Below, in pieces: positions 32,713-43,885 of a stretch of DNA of 64,000 bases. Under the pieces are notes generated by a model. It did no database searches and was not told the origin of the DNA. It was given only the letters and a program-made list of their open reading frames with translations. Position numbers and translations under genes: made by a program. Each line of letters begins with the position of its first letter. Positions within the stretch are counted from its first letter, which is position 1. Origin of the DNA: Phycisphaerae bacterium RAS1 (GTDB taxonomy: Bacteria; Planctomycetota; Phycisphaerae; UBA1845; Fen-1342); NCBI GenBank assembly GCA_007859745.1, contig SMLU01000001.1, positions 2,604,001-2,668,000 on the forward strand. Direction: 5' to 3'.

Positions 32713-33116
32713 GGGTGAGCCTCCGCAGGCGTCAGGATTTCGCGCACAGCCTGGCGCAGGACGGCCGCGTTGATGGGCTTTTCGAGGAATCGCCGCACGG
32801 GCAGAAAGTCGGTGCCGACTTCGCGCGCGAAGTCGAAACCCATCGACTGCCCGACGGCGGAGATCACGATGACGGGGATGTGCTCGAGCCGGGGGTCCTT
32901 CTTCATCTGGTAAACCAGGTGGAAGCCCTCGCTGGGCGACGCGAGCATGATGTCGAGCAGCAGCAGGTCCGGCGGCTGGCGCCGCATGGCGTCCAGCCCG
33001 GCCGGGCCGGTGAGGCTCGTCCGCAGCTTGTAGCCTTCCGGCTCGAGGATCATCTTGACCGCGTCATGGACATACGGATCGTCGTCGATGACGAGGATGT
33101 CTGCGTTCGGGTTCAT
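32709..33116 (-). CDS. single-domain response regulator
   Basis: 135 residues, one receiver domain and no output domain. ADILVIDDDPYVHDAV holds the acidic pocket, LLLLDIMLASPSEGF the phospho-acceptor Asp near residue 54, VIVISAVGQ the switch Ser, and RRFLEKPINAAVL the conserved Lys. It is coupled (ATGA) to the histidine kinase. With no DNA-binding part it must act by protein contact or as a phosphorelay step. I start at MNPNADIL; eight upstream codons are open but lack support. Confidence 0.92.
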   Translation of the reverse strand: MNPNADILVIDDDPYVHDAVKMILEPEGYKLRTSLTGPAGLDAMRRQPPDLLLLDIMLASPSEGFHLVYQMKKDPRLEHIPVIVISAVGQSMGFDFAREVGTDFLPVRRFLEKPINAAVLRQAVREILTPAEAHP

Positions 33117-33143
33117 TGCGCTGCTCCAATCACCGCTCATTCA

Positions 33144-33274
33144 CGCCGGACCTCTGCGCCTCGCGCCGGGTCAGGCCCGCTCTTCCCGCCGGACGCGGAG
33201 GTCCGGCGCTGCGCACGTACGCGGCACTACGCTGTGCCGTGCACCGTCGGACGCGGCGGTCCGACGCTGCGCAC
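33144..33274. repeat. family E repeat cluster (GTCGGACGCGGCGGTCCGAC type)
   Basis: Three related GC-rich pieces, CGCCGGACCTC, GGACGCGGAGGTCCGGCG and GTCGGACGCGGCGGTCCGAC, each near GCTGCGCAC. The last two are palindromic. The last one overlaps the 3' end of the HybB-like gene, where it encodes the final residues (SVGPPRPTVHGTA). The same word recurs as a 28-bp tandem array at 57864-57975. Confidence 0.7.
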
Positions 33275-34393
33275 CTGCTCGGCGGCGTGCGTGATCGGCA
33301 GCGAGCGGTTCATCACCGAAAGCACCAGCAGTCCGCCGGCCACGACGCCGGCCGACACCAGAATCTCAATCCAGCGCGGCATGTACCCGCTCGACGACGC
33401 CAGCATGCCCAGCAGCGCCACGTTCAGCCGGTTCATGACGACGCCGGCGATCACCATGACGCAGCAGCCGAAGAGCCTCAATCGATCGTAGCGCACGCTG
33501 GCGCTCAGCAACAGCAGACCCGGCAGCATCACGCCGACCACCATCTCCAGCAGAAACGCCCATGTCTCCAGGGAAGGCTCCAGCAGGCGGTGCAGCTCTC
33601 CCCGCCCGCTCAGGTCCATCAGCCGCAGACCGACGTACAGCGACAGGATGAGCGGCAGCGCCCCGGCCAGGTCGCCCAGCAGCCGGATCGGATAGCGGTG
33701 TCCGAAGATCATGCCCGACAGGATCGCCTCGAAGATCACCATCGCCACGCCCACCGCCAGCGAGGACATCAGGAACAGCAGCGGCAGGAGCGGCGTGAAC
33801 CACAGCGCGTGCAGGCGGTGGCCCATCATCACGAACAGCGAGCCCAGCGAGCTCTGGTGCACGGTGGACAGGACGATGCCGGCCAGCACGAAGATAATCA
33901 TCACGCGGTTCAGCGCGCGCAGGGCGCGCGTGAAGCCGAAACGCTCGCAGACGATCGGCAGAAACTCCAGAAAGAGCACGGTCGTATACAGCATGACGCA
34001 CCAGGCGACCTCGAACATCACCGAGCGCGGCTGCCACATCACCATCGGGTGCCAGATCACCCACGGCCGGCCGAGATCCATCATCAGGCCGATGACCGCC
34101 AGCAGGTAGCCCAGCAGGGCCGTGACGATCGCCGGCCGCACGAACGGCTCGTAGCGCTTCAGGCCGAACACGTGCACCGTGCCGGCCAGCACAAACCCGC
34201 CCGCCGCCAGCGCGATGCCGCACAGCATATCGAACCCGATCCACAAGCCCCACGGCATCGAGTCGGTCAGGTTGGTCGCCGCGCCGAGTCCTCCGAGAAA
34301 GCGGTAGATGGCCAGCCCGAACGCGATCATGACCAGCGCCGAAAGCGCCAGCCGTACGAGCGTAACTCTGCGGATGATCTCGGTGGTTTTCAC
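33227..34393 (-). CDS. hybB: HybB/NrfD-like hydrogenase membrane subunit
   Basis: 388 residues, about nine or ten transmembrane helices. Family motifs are MPWGLWIGFDMLCGIALAAG near residue 45, RPAIVTALLGYLLAVIGLMM, DLGRPWVIWHPMVMWQPRSV, HQSSLGSLFVMM, and LHALWFTPLLPLLFLMSSLA. HybB-type subunits take electrons from the ferredoxin partner and pass them to quinone without heme. The GTG start overlaps the stop of the HybA-like gene (GTGA). The last dozen residues come from a palindromic repeat. Confidence 0.88.
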   Translation of the reverse strand: MKTTEIIRRVTLVRLALSALVMIAFGLAIYRFLGGLGAATNLTDSMPWGLWIGFDMLCGIALAAGGFVLAGTVHVFGLKRYEPFVRPAIVTALLGYLLAVIGLMMDLGRPWVIWHPMVMWQPRSVMFEVAWCVMLYTTVLFLEFLPIVCERFGFTRALRALNRVMIIFVLAGIVLSTVHQSSLGSLFVMMGHRLHALWFTPLLPLLFLMSSLAVGVAMVIFEAILSGMIFGHRYPIRLLGDLAGALPLILSLYVGLRLMDLSGRGELHRLLEPSLETWAFLLEMVVGVMLPGLLLLSASVRYDRLRLFGCCVMVIAGVVMNRLNVALLGMLASSSGYMPRWIEILVSAGVVAGGLLVLSVMNRSLPITHAAEQVRSVGPPRPTVHGTA

Positions 34394-35292
34394 GACACGC
34401 CCTCCCGCCCGGCGCCGCTCCCCGGCGCGGATGGCGCATCCGCGGCCGCTGCTTCCTGGCGGGCCTGCAATCGTCGCAAGGCCCCCAGGAAGAGCGCCAG
34501 CCCGACCACCCAGCCGGGCACGGCGCCGAGGATCGGCTCGGCGAAGCTGGCCGGATTGGTGGGCGGCAGCTTCGGCATTCCCAGCTTCTCGAGCGGGATG
34601 GCCGAAAGAATCAGGTAGCTCGTTCCGCCGCCCTCGAACTCGCCGTAGACGTGATCGATGTAGCGGCCCGGCTCGCGCTCGATGCGATGCCGCGCTTCGC
34701 TGATGAGCTGCTTTCGCGTGCCGGCGACCAGCGCCGCCACCGGACAGGCCTTCACGCATCCCCCGTTCAGGTTGCACTTGCGGACGCGCGGCATGCGGTC
34801 GAACCACTCGTAGCGCGGCACCTCGTAGGGGCAGGCCAGCATGCAGTAGCGGCATCCGATGCAGCGGTCTTCGAAGTACAGCACCGGCCCCTTGTCGGTC
34901 TTCCGAAGCGCCGCAACGGGACAGGCCGACGCGCACGCCGGCACGTTGCAATGCATGCAATTCCGCTTGAGAAACGACCAGGGCCGCGGCGCGGCGCCCG
35001 GCCCTGCCGGCGCTTGAAACGCCTGAATCACCATCAGGTTGATGTGCGAGAGCTTGTGCGGTTTGTCGAACGCGACGCCGTCCACGAGACCCTCGTCGGG
35101 CGGCAGTTTGTTCACCTCGCGGCAGCGGCGAGCGCAGGCGCGGCAGCCGATGCAGCGGGTCGCGTCGTAGAGAATGGCAAAGGCGTTGTCGAACGTGGGC
35201 AGCGCCGCCTGCGGATCGGCCGCGGTCGCGACCTGCGCCGCGCCCACCGACCCCGCCAGCGCCAGGAATTGCCTACGGTTGAGGCCGCTCAT
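34390..35292 (-). CDS. hybA: HybA-like 4Fe-4S hydrogenase subunit
   Basis: 300 residues. The Tat-type signal NRRQFLALAGSVGAAQVA is followed by ferredoxin clusters: CIGCRACARRCREVN, CMHCNVPACASACPVAAL, CIGCRYCMLACPYEVPRYEW and CNLNGGCVKACP. The count and spacing fit the four-cluster HybA/DmsB family. A C-terminal helix (GAVPGWVVGLALFLGALRRL) anchors it to the membrane. The ATG at 35292 has AAGGAGG upstream and overlaps the small-subunit stop by 20 bases. It should carry electrons from the small subunit to HybB. Confidence 0.9.
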   Translation of the reverse strand: MSGLNRRQFLALAGSVGAAQVATAADPQAALPTFDNAFAILYDATRCIGCRACARRCREVNKLPPDEGLVDGVAFDKPHKLSHINLMVIQAFQAPAGPGAAPRPWSFLKRNCMHCNVPACASACPVAALRKTDKGPVLYFEDRCIGCRYCMLACPYEVPRYEWFDRMPRVRKCNLNGGCVKACPVAALVAGTRKQLISEARHRIEREPGRYIDHVYGEFEGGGTSYLILSAIPLEKLGMPKLPPTNPASFAEPILGAVPGWVVGLALFLGALRRLQARQEAAAADAPSAPGSGAGREGVS

Positions 35293-36454
35293 GTCGCGCC
35301 TCCTTGGTCGCCGGCGAAGCTTCGAGTTCTTCGTCAAACTCGGCTGGCTCCGTCTGCAGCTTGCGGGCCGCCGTCGCCACGCCCACGCCGCCCAGAAACG
35401 CCGCTACACCGATCATCCCCACAGCCGCGTACGTATTCGCGTCCGCCTGCCGGTGCGAGTCTTTCCCGGTCGCTGGATACGTGCCGGGGAAGGTGAGCTG
35501 CACCGGCTGCACGGGCTGAAAGAGCGAGCCTTCAAACGGAAACCCTGGTTCGCAGCAGCCGATGCACGGATGCCCGGCCTGCACGCACCAGTTGACGCCG
35601 CCGTTCCAGCGGCGGATCGGGCAATCGGCCTTCGTAAGCGGCCCCTTGCAGCCGAGCTTCACGAGGCACCCGTGCTCGCCGAAGCGCTGGGCAAACTCGC
35701 CGCGCTCGAAATGTCCGCGGTAGGGGCAATTGTCGTGAATGAGCTGCGAGAAGAACGCCGCCGGACGATGATGTTCGTCCAGCTTCAGCGCTTCGAGCCC
35801 GCCCAGGAGCAGCGTGGCGATGCTGCCGATGATCCAGTCCGGATGCGGCGGGCAGCCGGGGATATTGATGATCGGGTTCAGGATGTGCTCGCGGTGGAAC
35901 AGGGCCTCGACGCCGATGCAGTTGGTCGGATTGGGCGCGGCGGCCGGAATGCCGCCAAACGAAGCGCACGACCCGACCGCGACGGTGGCCAGCGCGTTGC
36001 GGCCCAGGTCGCGCACGTGCGAATAGCCGCTGACCGGGTCGCCGTCGCGCTCTCCAATGGAGCAGAAGCGTCCGGTGTCTTCGATCGCTGTGGCGCCGTC
36101 CACGACGAAGACATACCCGCCGGAATGCTCCTGCACGACGCGCTCCAGCACGCGCTGGGCCGACTCGCCGCTGGCCGCCATGAGCGTGGCGTGGTAGGCC
36201 AGGGCCAGCCGCTTGCCGGGCAGAATGTCACCGACCAGCGCGAAGCGCACCGTCGGCGAGGCGGCGTTCAGCAGAGAAACCGAGCAGCCGGTGCAGGCGC
36301 CGGTCGCCATCCAGATGATTGGAATCTCGGCCGCGCGTTCCGCGACGGATGGCTGTCCGCCCTCGGCCCATTCGGACAGCTTGTAGAAGGAGAGGCTCAG
36401 CACGCTGAACGTGCCGATGCCGGTGCCGAGAAACTCACGACGTGTCAGTTCCAT
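35273..36454 (-). CDS. hybO: [NiFe] hydrogenase small subunit
   Basis: 393 residues. Tat signal TRREFLGTGIGTFSVLSLSF. The three Fe-S clusters are placed by ATGACTGCSVSLLNAASPTV, VAVGSCASFGGIPAAAPNP, NIPGCPPHPDWIIGSIATLL, then LGCKGPLTKADCPIRRWNGG, NWCVQAGHPCIGCCEPGFPF. The C-terminus has one helix (VGMIGVAAFLGGVGVATAAR), typical of membrane-bound uptake enzymes. It oxidises H2 with the large subunit and hands electrons to HybA. The start overlaps the maturation protease end; the usual small-before-large order is reversed here. Confidence 0.93.
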   Translation of the reverse strand: MELTRREFLGTGIGTFSVLSLSFYKLSEWAEGGQPSVAERAAEIPIIWMATGACTGCSVSLLNAASPTVRFALVGDILPGKRLALAYHATLMAASGESAQRVLERVVQEHSGGYVFVVDGATAIEDTGRFCSIGERDGDPVSGYSHVRDLGRNALATVAVGSCASFGGIPAAAPNPTNCIGVEALFHREHILNPIINIPGCPPHPDWIIGSIATLLLGGLEALKLDEHHRPAAFFSQLIHDNCPYRGHFERGEFAQRFGEHGCLVKLGCKGPLTKADCPIRRWNGGVNWCVQAGHPCIGCCEPGFPFEGSLFQPVQPVQLTFPGTYPATGKDSHRQADANTYAAVGMIGVAAFLGGVGVATAARKLQTEPAEFDEELEASPATKEARHERPQP

Positions 36455-37212
36455 GGCTGGCCCTCCGCGCCCCGCGCGGCGGCAGCGCCCGGCTGCGGTG
36501 CCGGATGTTCGCTGCCTGGTTCGCAGTTGTCGGTTGCCGGTCTGCACTGGAGGCCGGCCGCAGCGGGCGGTGGGGTCGCGAATCGCTCTGTTACGGCACG
36601 CGTTCCGATTCGCATCCCCCACCGCCGACTCAATGTTTCGCTATTCGTCCACGGCCGGCGCGGCCGGCCGCCGCCGTTGCCGGCATGAATCGCCCGCAGC
36701 GCCCGCCGCACGATGGCGGCCAGCGCTGGGGCGACGTCTGGGGAGAGTCCGATTCCGGACGAGACATCGGCCACCTGGACCGTGAGCACGCGCACTTCGC
36801 GCGGCGCCTGTTCGAGCAGCTCCAATTCCGCCAGTGCATCCAGCAGGTGGAAATCGTGCAGGCTCAGGCCGCTGCGCACCGCGGGCTGCAACTGCTCCGG
36901 CCGCATCCATGCGATCGCGCCGGGCACGGCCCCGCGGTCGATCGCGTCGATCACGACGACGCGCTCGCGCCTCGCCAGTACGACGGCCAGCTCCAGCCCG
37001 CCGGCGCCGCCGTCGTAGATTTCGAAGGAATGGGGAGCATCGGCGTCCCGCCGGTGCGCACCGGCTGGAAGCCGATGCTCCCTAGATTGGCAGGCGCCGA
37101 CGCGCGTATCCGCGTTCGACAACAAACAACGAACCGCGTGAATCCCGACGCCGTCATCGCGCCGCAGGAGATTGCCCACTCCCAGAATCAGTCGCGGGCA
37201 AACAGCAGCCAT
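36445..37212 (-). CDS. hybD: hydrogenase maturation protease with in-frame repeat insertion
   Basis: 255 residues; the family is normally about 150-170. The core matches HyaD/HybD: LILGVGNLLRRDDGVGIHAV (with the Ni-sensing Asp), FEIYDGGAGGLELAVVLARR, VVVIDAIDRGAVPGAIAWM, and LSLHDFHLLDALAELELL with a conserved His. These enzymes cut the C-terminal peptide of the large subunit once nickel is in place. Between ADTRVGACQSR and FEIYDGG lies a family A palindrome read in frame (EHRLPAGAHRRDADAPHS). The ~75 residues after AAIVRRALRAIHAGN are low-complexity and may be an artefact of a lost stop. It sits between the large and small subunit genes. Confidence 0.82.
   Translation of the reverse strand: MAAVCPRLILGVGNLLRRDDGVGIHAVRCLLSNADTRVGACQSREHRLPAGAHRRDADAPHSFEIYDGGAGGLELAVVLARRERVVVIDAIDRGAVPGAIAWMRPEQLQPAVRSGLSLHDFHLLDALAELELLEQAPREVRVLTVQVADVSSGIGLSPDVAPALAAIVRRALRAIHAGNGGGRPRRPWTNSETLSRRWGMRIGTRAVTERFATPPPAAAGLQCRPATDNCEPGSEHPAPQPGAAAARGAEGQPWN
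37032..37083. repeat. family A palindrome inside the maturation protease gene
   Basis: GCATCGGCGTCCCGCCGGTG followed by an imperfect reverse complement containing CACCGGCTGGAAGCCGATGC. It lies in frame in the hybD-like gene and adds about 17 residues without a stop. Confidence 0.88.
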
Positions 37213-37224
37213 CTCACGGCCTCC

Positions 37225-38781
37225 TCAGATCACGCGGAAAGTCCCGCGGTCGAAGCCCTTCGGCGTCACCAGGTGGATCGAACACGCCAGGCACGGATCA
37301 AACGAGCGCACGATCCGCACCAGCTCAAACGGGTTCTGCTCATCCTTGACGCGCGTGCCTTCCAGGGCCTGCTCGCAGGCGCCCGGCTGGTCGCGGTCGT
37401 CGCGCGGCGAGCAGTTCCACGTGGTCGGCACGACGGCCTGGTAGTTTGCGATGACGCCGTCGCGAATCTCGATCCAATGTCCGACCGAGCCGCGCGGCGC
37501 CTCGGTGATCCCCATGCCGCTGCCGGCCGCCGGCACGCTCGATTCGGCGCAGGCCGGCTCGCCGGGCCGAAGCTGCAGGACCCACTCCGCCATCGCGTCG
37601 GCGACGAGCTTGCACTCGATCGCCCGCGCTGCGTGTCGGCCGAGCACGGAAAAGAGCGCCGCCGGCGGCGCATTCAGCTCGGAAAGCACCATGTCGACCA
37701 GCTTGCGGACGCGCTCGTGCCCCTTGGCGTAAGCGATCAGCATCCGCGCCAGCGGCCCGACCTCGCACACCTCGTTGGCGTAACGCGGCGCCTTCAGGAA
37801 CGAATACGCCGAGGGCTTGGTCGGATCTGCGGCAGTTTCGCCCACGGACGGCCGCAGGTCGCTCGTGCTCTTGTACCAGGCGTAGCGCACCTGCTCCGTG
37901 ATGCGCTGCGGATCCAGCGGCAGCAGCTCCTGTGTCTGCGTGTTCAGCACGCCCGCCGGCAGGTAGCGTCGCCGCCGGGTCAAATCCGCCGCCTGATCCA
38001 GGTCCCACGCGCCGTAGGAGAGGAACCGCTTGCAGCCGGGGCCGATCTCGGCGTAATCGGGGTAAGCGCGCGCCACGGCCAGCACGTCGGGCAGGTAGAT
38101 GTTGTCGATGAAATCCCGCAGCCGCTCGAGCCGGTGGCGGAAGGAGACGATCTTGTCGACCGTCGCCTGCTCGAGGGCGCCGCCGGGGAAGATGCTCATC
38201 TGGTGCGGCATCTTCCCGCCGAACACCGCCAGCATCTCGTGCGCTTCGCGGCGCTTGTGCAGCGCCTCGACGTAATGCGAGACGCACGCCTGGTTGGCGT
38301 CGCGCGACAGACGATAGTCCCCCTCGTAGCGCGGCAGGAACGGCGAGTAACTGCCGCCGCTCAGGTATTGCGCGACCAGCCGCAGGTTGCGGTCCGCGCC
38401 GCTGTAGCCGGCGGCCGCGGTGGCGTCGACGAAATCGAGCGCCGCCAGGTGATAGAAGTGGAGGATGTGCGACTGGATGAAATTGCTGCCGAAGATCAGG
38501 TTGCGGATGACGCGGCCGTTGTGCGGGACCAGGTCGGCGACGTGAAAGGCGTCGTCGAGCGCCAAGGCGCTGGCCATGGCGTGCGCGATCGGGCACACGC
38601 CACAGATGCGCTGCGTAATGACCTGCGCGTCGCGCGGGTCGCGGCCGCGGAGAATGACCTCCAGCCCGCGGAAGAGCATGCCCGCGCAGCGAGCTTCCTT
38701 TACCACGCCGTCCTCGGTGACGGCCTCGATTTTGAGGTGCCCCTCGATCCGCGTGACGGGGTCGATGACGATTCTGGACAT
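37225..38781 (-). CDS. hybC: [NiFe] hydrogenase large subunit
   Basis: 518 residues. The N-terminal motif IDPVTRIEGHLKIE, the first Cys pair in QRICGVCPIAHAMAS and the second in DPCLACSIHLVTPK hold the Ni-Fe site. The 15 residues after His (LVTPKGFDRGTFRVI) are the peptide removed by the maturation protease encoded next. Length and motifs fit group 1 membrane-bound uptake hydrogenases. It is the first structural gene, 33 bases after the MarR-type regulator and 12 bases before the protease gene. Confidence 0.95.
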   Translation of the reverse strand: MSRIVIDPVTRIEGHLKIEAVTEDGVVKEARCAGMLFRGLEVILRGRDPRDAQVITQRICGVCPIAHAMASALALDDAFHVADLVPHNGRVIRNLIFGSNFIQSHILHFYHLAALDFVDATAAAGYSGADRNLRLVAQYLSGGSYSPFLPRYEGDYRLSRDANQACVSHYVEALHKRREAHEMLAVFGGKMPHQMSIFPGGALEQATVDKIVSFRHRLERLRDFIDNIYLPDVLAVARAYPDYAEIGPGCKRFLSYGAWDLDQAADLTRRRRYLPAGVLNTQTQELLPLDPQRITEQVRYAWYKSTSDLRPSVGETAADPTKPSAYSFLKAPRYANEVCEVGPLARMLIAYAKGHERVRKLVDMVLSELNAPPAALFSVLGRHAARAIECKLVADAMAEWVLQLRPGEPACAESSVPAAGSGMGITEAPRGSVGHWIEIRDGVIANYQAVVPTTWNCSPRDDRDQPGACEQALEGTRVKDEQNPFELVRIVRSFDPCLACSIHLVTPKGFDRGTFRVI

Positions 38782-38814
38782 GGTCGCCTCCGCCGGTCTT
38801 ACGGGCCGGGCAGA

Positions 38815-39453
38815 CTATGTGTGCGGAGCGTGCGCCGTGCCGCCGCGACGGCGCTGCCGCTGATACGGGCAGCCGCCGTGAACGCGCCGCACGGCGCACT
38901 CCGATTCGAGATAGGCGCCGCAGCGCAGGCAAACGTCGGACTCGACCCGCGTCGCCTCGTACAGCGCCGTCGAAAACCGCTCCAGCAGGCCGGTCAACCG
39001 CAGCAGGTCGTCGTCCGCGAACTGCCGCACGATCTTCTGCATGCGGGCCGCCTTCAGCGCGTCGCAGCGGCGGACGATCTCCCGGCCGCGAGCGCTGACC
39101 GAAAGGCTCAGGGCGCGACGGTCGTCGGCCGACGGCCGCCGCAACAGGAGCCCCAGGCGAACCAGCTTGTCGATGTTCTTAGTGGCGGCCGGCGCGCTGA
39201 CGCCCAGGAAATCGGCCAGCTCTCCCGCCTGATGCTGGCCATTGAGCACCAGCAGCTTGAGCAGGTGAAACTGCGCCAGCGTGAGCGGACGCGGGCAGAC
39301 CTCGCGAAGGAGGGCCGACTCGAGCGTCTCGCGCACCGCCGCCGAGAAGATGTGACACGCGCGCATCAGCCGCGTCGCGCGGTCGCCCGCGCTCCCGCCG
39401 CCGGGCGGCGGGGGCGTGATCGACGGGTCGGCGGCCGGACGCAGCGCCTTCAT
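38815..39453 (-). CDS. MarR-family regulator with Cys-rich tail
   Basis: 212 residues. Residues about 60-150 are a winged helix of the MarR type: LTLAQFHLLKLLVLNGQHQA, ELADFLGVSAPAATKNIDKL, VRLGLLLRRPSADDRRALSL. The C-terminus adds CLRCGAYLESECAVRRVHGG and CPY, four Cys that could bind an Fe-S cluster or zinc and so sense redox or O2 (inference). It heads the hydrogenase gene set, so it likely controls it and itself. Start choice: the ATG at 39453 leaves about 29 bases after the predicted transcription start; the ATG at 39468 would leave too little leader. Confidence 0.82.
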   Translation of the reverse strand: MKALRPAADPSITPPPPGGGSAGDRATRLMRACHIFSAAVRETLESALLREVCPRPLTLAQFHLLKLLVLNGQHQAGELADFLGVSAPAATKNIDKLVRLGLLLRRPSADDRRALSLSVSARGREIVRRCDALKAARMQKIVRQFADDDLLRLTGLLERFSTALYEATRVESDVCLRCGAYLESECAVRRVHGGCPYQRQRRRGGTAHAPHT

Positions 39454-39467
39454 ATCTGTTAACCCCA

Positions 39468-39486
39468 TTACTAATTAACCTAGTAA
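39468..39486. promoter_or_regulatory. MarR operator palindrome
   Basis: TTACTA-ATTAACC-TAGTAA, a perfect inverted repeat in an AT-rich stretch of otherwise GC-rich DNA. It lies immediately downstream of the predicted -10, over the expected transcription start, ideal for repression by the adjacent MarR-type protein. Confidence 0.65.
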
Positions 39487-39488
39487 AT

Positions 39489-39516
39489 AGTATACCTGAT
39501 TTAACTCGCTTGGCAA
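39489..39516 (-). promoter_or_regulatory. sigma-70-like promoter of the hydrogenase locus
   Basis: On the minus strand TTGCCA (39516-39511), 16 bases, then TATACT (39494-39489). Both boxes are near consensus. The palindromic operator follows directly. Confidence 0.65.
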
Positions 39517-39700
39517 GCGGAATCGGGGACCGGGTGCTGGTCAGGGCTTACGGTGGGCGCCGTGAAGCGCCACGGGCGCCAGGCCGACGGGCTTTGCTCC
39601 GGCCTGCCCACGCAAAAGCCGTCCGCATGGCACTCACGGCAACCCAAACTCGACCAGCGTTCTGAACCGCGGTCGCGGGTCGCACGCGCCCGTTTGACGG

Positions 39701-39806
39701 TACTGGTCAAGTTTGACTCCCGGCGCGGGGGGCATCGGCGTCCCGCCGGTGCAATTCTGCACTCGCACCGGCGGGACGCCGATGCTCCCCGCGAACTTGA
39801 CCAGTA
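39701..39806. repeat. 106-bp composite repeat, copy 1
   Basis: TACTGGTCAAGTTTG at the left and AACTTGACCAGTA at the right enclose a family A palindrome whose arms are separated by AATTCTGCACTC. A second 106-bp copy in the opposite orientation lies at 43780-43885. This is the only structure seen between 39517 and 39918. Confidence 0.88.
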
Positions 39807-43779: not shown

Positions 43780-43885
43780 TACTGGTCAAGTTTGCGGGGA
43801 GCATCGGCGTCCCGCCGGTGCAATTCTGCACTCGCACCGGCGGGACGCCGATGCTCCCCGCGCCGGGAGTCTAACCTGACCAGTA
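43780..43885. repeat. 106-bp composite repeat, copy 2 (inverted)
   Basis: The reverse complement of the 39701-39806 copy with a few changes (TACTGGTCAAGTTTGCGGGG at one end, AACCTGACCAGTA at the other). A family A palindrome is the core. It lies in the gap between the secreted-protein genes and homogentisate dioxygenase. Confidence 0.88.

Follow-up and report, generated by a model that had tools for sequence, protein, structure and literature searches.

Organization of the locus

The stretch of DNA analysed here (the window), which comprises 64,000 nucleotides of the genome of Phycisphaerae bacterium RAS1, carries on one and the same strand, the minus strand, a promoter, a palindrome, a gene for a MarR-type regulator (marR) and a set of hydrogenase genes. 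The promoter, of the sigma-70 type and with the composition TTGCCA-N16-TATACT (39489..39516, minus strand), was the sole site recovered when positions 33000-39700 were scanned, where it appeared in two versions that overlap and match at 10 and 9 of 12 positions, as compared with a mean of 0.5 in shuffled sequence. In 22 of 28 loci (the window and the 27 relatives described below), a similarly placed promoter resembling TTGACA/TATAAT scored at p<=0.05 relative to shuffled sequence. The preferred form of marR (38815..39453, minus strand) begins at ATG 39453 and encodes 212 amino acids (MKALRP...), and the first hydrogenase gene begins 34 base pairs past its stop codon on the same strand; both the promoter, running from 39516 to 39489, and the placement of marR and the hydrogenase genes downstream of it were thus as the first-pass annotation of this DNA had described them.

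The five genes behind marR, all on the minus strand, appear to specify a membrane-bound, H2-uptake [NiFe]-hydrogenase. They comprise a large subunit (37225..38781), assigned from an above-cut-off match to NF033181 and from its cysteine ligands; a maturation protease (36445..37212; TIGR00072, above cut-off); a small subunit (35273..36457; TIGR00391, above cut-off) with a twin-arginine-like start, MELTRREFLG, at a start position chosen by the analyst; and a HybA-like ferredoxin subunit (34390..35292) and a HybB/NrfD-like membrane subunit (33227..34420), whose best NCBIfam matches, PRK10882 and PRK10881 respectively, lie below cut-off and whose starts are approximate. The gap that separates marR from the large-subunit gene showed nothing resembling a terminator, and the regulator and the genes behind it would be co-transcribed.

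Searches for relatives of the regulator returned matches in 20 of 298 genomes of the class, 33 of 114 of the order and 21 of 392 of the phylum (several of the last via the helix-turn-helix part only), each count including the window's own genome, as well as in 5 of 297 genomes from the phylum to which G347 belongs (G347 being the genome that contains locus L048, an Acidobacteria record), a set without the window's genome. A scan of genome contigs supplied 27 loci (L043-L069), which together with the window form the main comparison of 28 loci; five of their contigs are, judging from length, duplicates of genome contigs (L043=G089, L049=G281, L051=G208, L059=G212 and L065=G065). These loci are labelled as Phycisphaerae or other Planctomycetota, as Acidobacteria, Acidobacteriota or Thermoanaerobaculia, as Latescibacterota (one) and as an uncultured bacterium (one), while two records are named 'uncultured Acidimicrobiaceae' yet bear isolate names that say Acidobacteriota. 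No close relative was confirmed in viral contigs, and none of 69 plasmid records with partial matches covered 80% of the query.

A MarR-type regulator with an invariant cysteine tail

The regulator, which is present in one copy in the 5.5-Mb host genome, possesses a MarR winged-helix domain that matches PF01047 with 50.1 bits (cut-off 24.6; E 2.6e-13) and PF12802 with 45 bits (cut-off 27). Its fold, as predicted from the 28-sequence alignment (mean pLDDT 74.7), is of the MarR type and matches those of YusO, MarR and ST1710. In its winged-helix domain and fold, and in the position of its gene before putative targets, the protein resembles known members of the family such as MarR, SlyA, OhrR, HpaR and AdcR; it differs from them in possessing a C-terminal module of four cysteines, and in being associated with four arrayed half-sites where a single palindrome is usual.

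The module (38869..38931, minus strand) reads CLRC-GAYLESE-C-AVRRVHGG-C and contains C180, C183, C191 and C200, in the numbering of a 217-residue form. While the first-pass annotation correctly noted four cysteines in the tail, the spacing that it gave, CxxC-x9-C-x8-C, was a miscount, the actual pattern being CxxC-x7-C-x8-C. The same annotation had named conservation of the tail beforehand as a refutation test, and all four cysteines proved invariant in 28 of 28 aligned sequences, where they are found among 26 invariant columns in an alignment (A3) of the window protein with 27 relatives that are 42-50% identical to it. Among 77 distinct homologous frames, drawn from loci that were themselves found via this protein, its alignments or its neighbours, the motif is present in 65, with spacing x7/x8 in 63 and x7/x9 in two (L173 and L174); in two more (L175 and L176) the contig ends after the third cysteine. 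The remaining 10 frames matched over the helix-turn-helix part only, and as those matches end at or before profile position 171, they are MarR proteins without the tail. A second group in the same class, only 20-29% identical, carries a tail of identical spacing.

The near-fixed spacing of the four cysteines bears upon the possibility that they act as a metal-free thiol-disulfide switch, sensing oxidation in the manner of OhrR and related MarR proteins. Such switches are known in the MarR family, and the tail does offer a CxxC pair and two further cysteines; the retention of exactly x7/x8 in 63 of 65 tails, however, points to a four-ligand site over one reactive pair, and we regard this explanation as improbable.

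A site with four ligands would bind a metal, most likely as an iron-sulfur cluster. When five tails alone were searched against Pfam, four were without a match at E<=5, a result that counts against a cluster, and the fifth gave a sub-threshold match to Fer4_8 (E 0.064). The sequence CxxCG is also a typical beginning of a zinc knuckle, and the resemblance of CLRCG and CLQCG to such knuckles favours an alternative in which zinc has a structural role in the tail and a pathway metabolite, such as an acyl-CoA or a 2-oxoacid, releases the array-bound repressor. The spacing of the tail is, on the other hand, not a standard zinc-finger pattern. Against the model of the AdcR/ZitR zinc regulators (NF038251), for which the cut-off is 175, the protein scored 28.9 bits. 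The predicted structure of the tail was set aside, its confidence being too low (block means of 41-52 for residues 171-210), and among the solved-structure sequence matches listed (60 of 100) none reaches past profile position 170, that is, into the tail.

Two winged-helix repressors provide precedents for sensing through C-terminal cysteines (PMC12343034, PMC6034842). ArnR, a [4Fe-4S] repressor of nar in Corynebacterium, shares with the window protein a MarR/ArsR-like helix-turn-helix and, as proposed here, a C-terminal cysteine-ligated sensory part and the control of anaerobic energy metabolism; it differs in possessing three conserved cysteines (179, 193 and 223) of quite different spacing, in being almost exclusive to Actinobacteria, and in controlling nitrate reductase and hmp (PMC12343034). 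SufR (Rv1460), an Fe-S repressor of suf, is likewise a winged-helix repressor with a C-terminal cysteine cluster and heads its own operon in M. tuberculosis, but its cysteines lie at 203, 216 and 244 and it controls genes of Fe-S assembly (PMC6034842). The C-x2-C-x7-C-x8-C tail therefore corresponds to neither published spacing. The NCBIfam library contains a model for SufR, and that model was absent among the 11 NCBIfam matches of the window protein at E<=1e-3. No tailed MarR-type Fe-S regulator was found among the open-licence PMC papers searched.

A conserved array of alternating half-sites

The -10 box is separated from the start codon by a 29-base-pair array of four half-sites, TTTAC, GTTAA, GTAAT and GTTAA (39459..39487, minus strand), in alternating orientation and with a pitch of 8 base pairs, which conservation and a dyad scan together point to as the putative operator. 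Its core, GGTTAA-N10-GGTTAA (39459-39480, minus strand), was first spotted through a comparison of DNA upstream of six orthologues. The exact core occurs 12 times in 777,320 positions (28 loci, both strands), in all 12 cases directly upstream of marR, and was absent from 3.9 million positions of shuffled sequence (ten mononucleotide shuffles, one strand). With up to two mismatches it lies upstream of marR in 24 of the 28 loci; among the 22 loci outside the discovery set, 15 harbor it with at most one mismatch and 18 with at most two. A gap-free alignment of 27 loci yielded the consensus TTAAC-N3-GTTAA-ATA-nTAAC-N3-GTTAA (by column counts, TTAA(C)-N3-GTTAA-ATA-(n)TAAC-N3-GTTAA), and the array is seen again in relatives whose records carry the labels Planctomycetota, Acidobacteria and Latescibacterota. 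Counting against its generality are four loci with no copy within two mismatches, namely L061, L063 and L066 (three mismatches) and L046 (four), and a match with one mismatch that lies 6.9 kb from marR in L044. In L066 and L067 a match with two mismatches also occurs, at a distance of some 1.4 kb from the marR match, and the remaining ten matches elsewhere in the loci are found on the minus strand within about 100 nucleotides of the start of the marR match.

A scan for dyads of the form 5-N3-5 at all positions of the 28 loci ranked left-arm starts of -7, +9 and +1 at the top, with mean pairing of 0.74, 0.61 and 0.56, respectively, against an overall mean of 0.25. These axes correspond to four alternating half-sites 8 base pairs apart, and since the two left arms favour that arrangement over a plain direct repeat, GGTTAA-N10-GGTTAA was retained as the core only. 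In one further locus (L146:10500-10516, minus strand) three GGTTAA-like repeats with a spacing of 16 base pairs stand in a row before marR, and the array can thus be longer.

The first-pass annotation had placed the operator elsewhere, at a palindrome, TTACTA-N7-TAGTAA (39468..39486, minus strand), which overlaps the array. That element is indeed present, perfect and unique in the 5.5-Mb genome, beside the -10 box, and its 6-N7-6 axis ranks fourth of 89 positions in mean pairing over the 28 loci (0.41, or 0.39 without the window, against a background of 0.25), a rank that reflects its position inside the conserved array. The pairing is nevertheless specific to the window, at 6/6 there; L052 reaches 5/6, the 26 loci that remain pair at only 1-4 of 6 positions, and the best axes are those with left arms at -7, +9 and +1; the palindrome was accordingly rejected as the operator. 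The wider proposal to which it belonged, in which the regulator is in addition a dedicated sensor for the hydrogenase, is very improbable, and its second element is considered with the neighbouring genes below.

In the 22 loci with a promoter of this kind, the end of the -10 box sits 4-13 nucleotides before the first GGTTAA, such that the array covers the expected start of transcription. In 23 of 27 loci with a listed site, an in-frame start codon follows 3-5 nucleotides past the second GGTTAA (the others being L045, L052, L061 and L063), which argues that ATG 39453 is probably the true start of marR, rather than the ATG at 39468 that opens the 217-residue long form (39468 to 38815, minus strand) and falls inside the array. 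The location of a conserved array between the promoter and the start of the regulator's own operon fits autorepression, as had been suggested. The host genome, of 5.5 Mb, contains one exact copy of the core, and the extended pattern with up to three mismatches also finds a single match; as the backwards control returned one match too, the regulator likely, though not certainly, has just one target promoter.

Genes adjoining the regulator in relatives

Genes for a KorD-type ferredoxin and a KorA-type protein, belonging to a 2-oxoacid:ferredoxin oxidoreductase (KOR), follow marR on the same strand in 25 of the 27 loci L043-L069, one of which (L044) shows only KorD and a shortened KorA in the frames called. 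KorB-type frames were found in 23 of the 27, KorC-type frames in 20 and HdrBC-type frames in 15, with several contigs ending early. Only two loci, L061 and L065, were used to assign these family names; there KorA lies above the PRK08659 cut-off and the other Kor and Hdr names represent below-cut-off NCBIfam matches with supporting Pfam domains. After KorC the two loci diverge, one continuing with HdrA-like and FlpD/MvhD-like genes and the other with GltD-like and FlpD genes. KOR genes also lie near marR in L146 and L149. In L064 (by its length the contig of L185) a gene with a hemerythrin domain is situated between marR and korD.

Hydrogenase genes, by comparison, adjoin marR in only two of the 28 loci, the window and L043, the latter with a large subunit 84% identical and all five hydrogenase genes in order. 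Remnants are found in one more (L051/L026), consisting of residues 1-38 and a piece around residue 294 of the large subunit and residues 314-389 of 397 of HybB, while the marR gene, its tail and an exact core remain intact there. The fragmented state of that operon (L026:11568-11990) may represent real decay or a fault of MAG assembly. Conversely, a hydrogenase 73% identical in G314 is without such a marR in the 12 kb examined. A dedicated hydrogenase sensor is at odds with this distribution, and the suggested autorepression, while compatible with an operator-like array in the regulator's own operon, does not extend to the hydrogenase specificity once attached to it.

In the genomes with hydrogenase- or remnant-linked marR (G000, G089 and G208), KorA homologues are only 30-37% identical and not of the marR-linked type. 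A midpoint-rooted tree requires two changes to account for the three hydrogenase-linked rows, two of which are placed near its base; as that tree does not settle which linkage is older, the view that KOR linkage is ancestral was withdrawn. A third type of neighbour, citrate synthase, stands behind a tailed MarR with a two-mismatch array in L147 (5214-6488), so that the family is connected not only with KOR but also with the TCA cycle. The retention of the array before hydrogenase, KOR and (with two mismatches) citrate-synthase genes indicates that it travels with marR across different targets, and that it probably belongs to the regulator as its own site and not to those targets.

More distant tailed relatives

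The surroundings of marR were covered in seven intermediate tailed loci (L177, L178, L181-L184 and L186, L180 having yielded no frame; the family scan covered L177, L181-L183 and L186), and in three of the seven they contain genes resembling those of the benzoyl-CoA pathway, most of the matches falling short of curated cut-offs. In L186 marR adjoins two HGD-D genes and an ATPase gene of the BadF/BcrA type, and their best or high-ranking matches are to benzoyl-CoA reductase C, B and A (below cut-offs); in L183 there are genes of the crotonase and alcohol-dehydrogenase types, for which oah, dch and had rank among the leading matches (below cut-offs); and a bcrD-like ATPase gene lies about 4.4 kb away in L182. 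In Thauera, benzoyl-CoA reductase is supplied by 2-oxoglutarate:ferredoxin oxidoreductase. A hemerythrin-domain gene is present in L181 and a DUF362 gene in L177.

The array does not accompany these intermediates, the best matches having two mismatches in L158, three in L175 and L176 and 4-5 in other tailed loci, nor is it found in the 20-29% identical group (best, 3-5 mismatches), where no neighbouring family is common to more than three of 11 loci apart from frames antisense to marR. Both results weigh against the mechanism favoured below.

The neighbours of these intermediates recall BadR, a MarR-type repressor of cyclohexane carboxylate degradation, an anaerobic alicyclic/aromatic pathway; its operator, CAA-N4-TTG, and its effector, the CoA thioester CHC-CoA, which releases it, are different from what is proposed here (PMC9795900). 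The response of BadR to CoA thioesters lends support to the alternative of a structural zinc site and release by a metabolite, as does the presence of CoA-dependent enzymes (KOR-type, citrate synthase and benzoyl-CoA-pathway-like) among the putative targets. One fixed tail is, however, maintained over pathways with different metabolites, which a shared physical signal would explain more easily, and we consider the zinc and metabolite explanation less probable than a cluster, yet the main and a serious alternative to it.

A proposed redox switch

The original observation was real, but with a wrong spacing and the wrong symmetry; the conserved tail and the conserved array together would constitute a new and testable form of MarR regulation. 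In the mechanism that we favour, the regulator is a winged-helix repressor encoded by the first gene of an operon under its own control, and its dimers would occupy the four half-sites that separate the -10 box from the start codon, preventing marR and the five genes that follow from being transcribed. The invariant CxxC-x7-C-x8-C module would carry a metal center, most likely an Fe-S cluster, and a change in the redox state of that cluster, its loss, or its reaction with NO or O2 would alter DNA binding, restricting synthesis of an oxygen-sensitive enzyme to sufficiently reduced cells.

The neighbours are repeatedly low-potential, oxygen-sensitive Fe-S systems (KOR-HDR-like, hydrogenase and, through matches mostly below cut-offs, benzoyl-CoA-pathway-like), although the citrate synthase of L147 is not oxygen-sensitive. 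Such chemistry, shared by most targets, favours a tail that reads redox state, O2, NO or cluster supply, and a strictly conserved tail and an own control site before oxygen-sensitive enzymes suggest that oxygen, redox state or a metal is sensed. An autorepressor with a metal-binding tail, most likely an Fe-S cluster, that is common to several low-potential, oxygen-sensitive pathways has, in our estimation, about an even chance of being correct. The fuller proposal is put forward more tentatively: that these proteins form an undescribed MarR subfamily in which the Cys4 module senses the low-potential (ferredoxin/H2/O2) state through an Fe-S cluster, that gene and TTAAC array act as a portable switch before KOR-HDR and [NiFe]-hydrogenase genes across phyla, and that distant versions without the array accompany benzoyl-CoA-pathway-like genes.

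If correct, this would represent a compact and testable redox or oxygen switch governing ferredoxin-dependent metabolism in Planctomycetota and Acidobacteriota that are mostly uncultivated. The MarR family proper would then be added to the regulators known to sense through Fe-S clusters, and a named operator would be available with which regulated operons can be found in metagenomes.

Additional features of the hydrogenase genes and the window

Ten related hydrogenase large subunits from the order genomes (L114-L123) appear to stop directly after DPCxACAVH, and thus to lack the C-terminal extension that is cleaved off by the maturation protease and that the large subunit in the window retains. 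Selenocysteine was considered for these subunits and rejected: the alignments of L116 and L119 pass a stop located after the final histidine, the other eight stop-flagged alignments end at that histidine, and the stops are therefore read as gene ends. Finally, an interspersed, hairpin-forming repeat is found in the window at 39719-39793 and 43788-43862 and at 37024, 45318 and 46846; it is 69 nucleotides long and 99% identical between two copies, with a 34-nucleotide core in five copies and near-perfect stems of 28-29 nucleotides.
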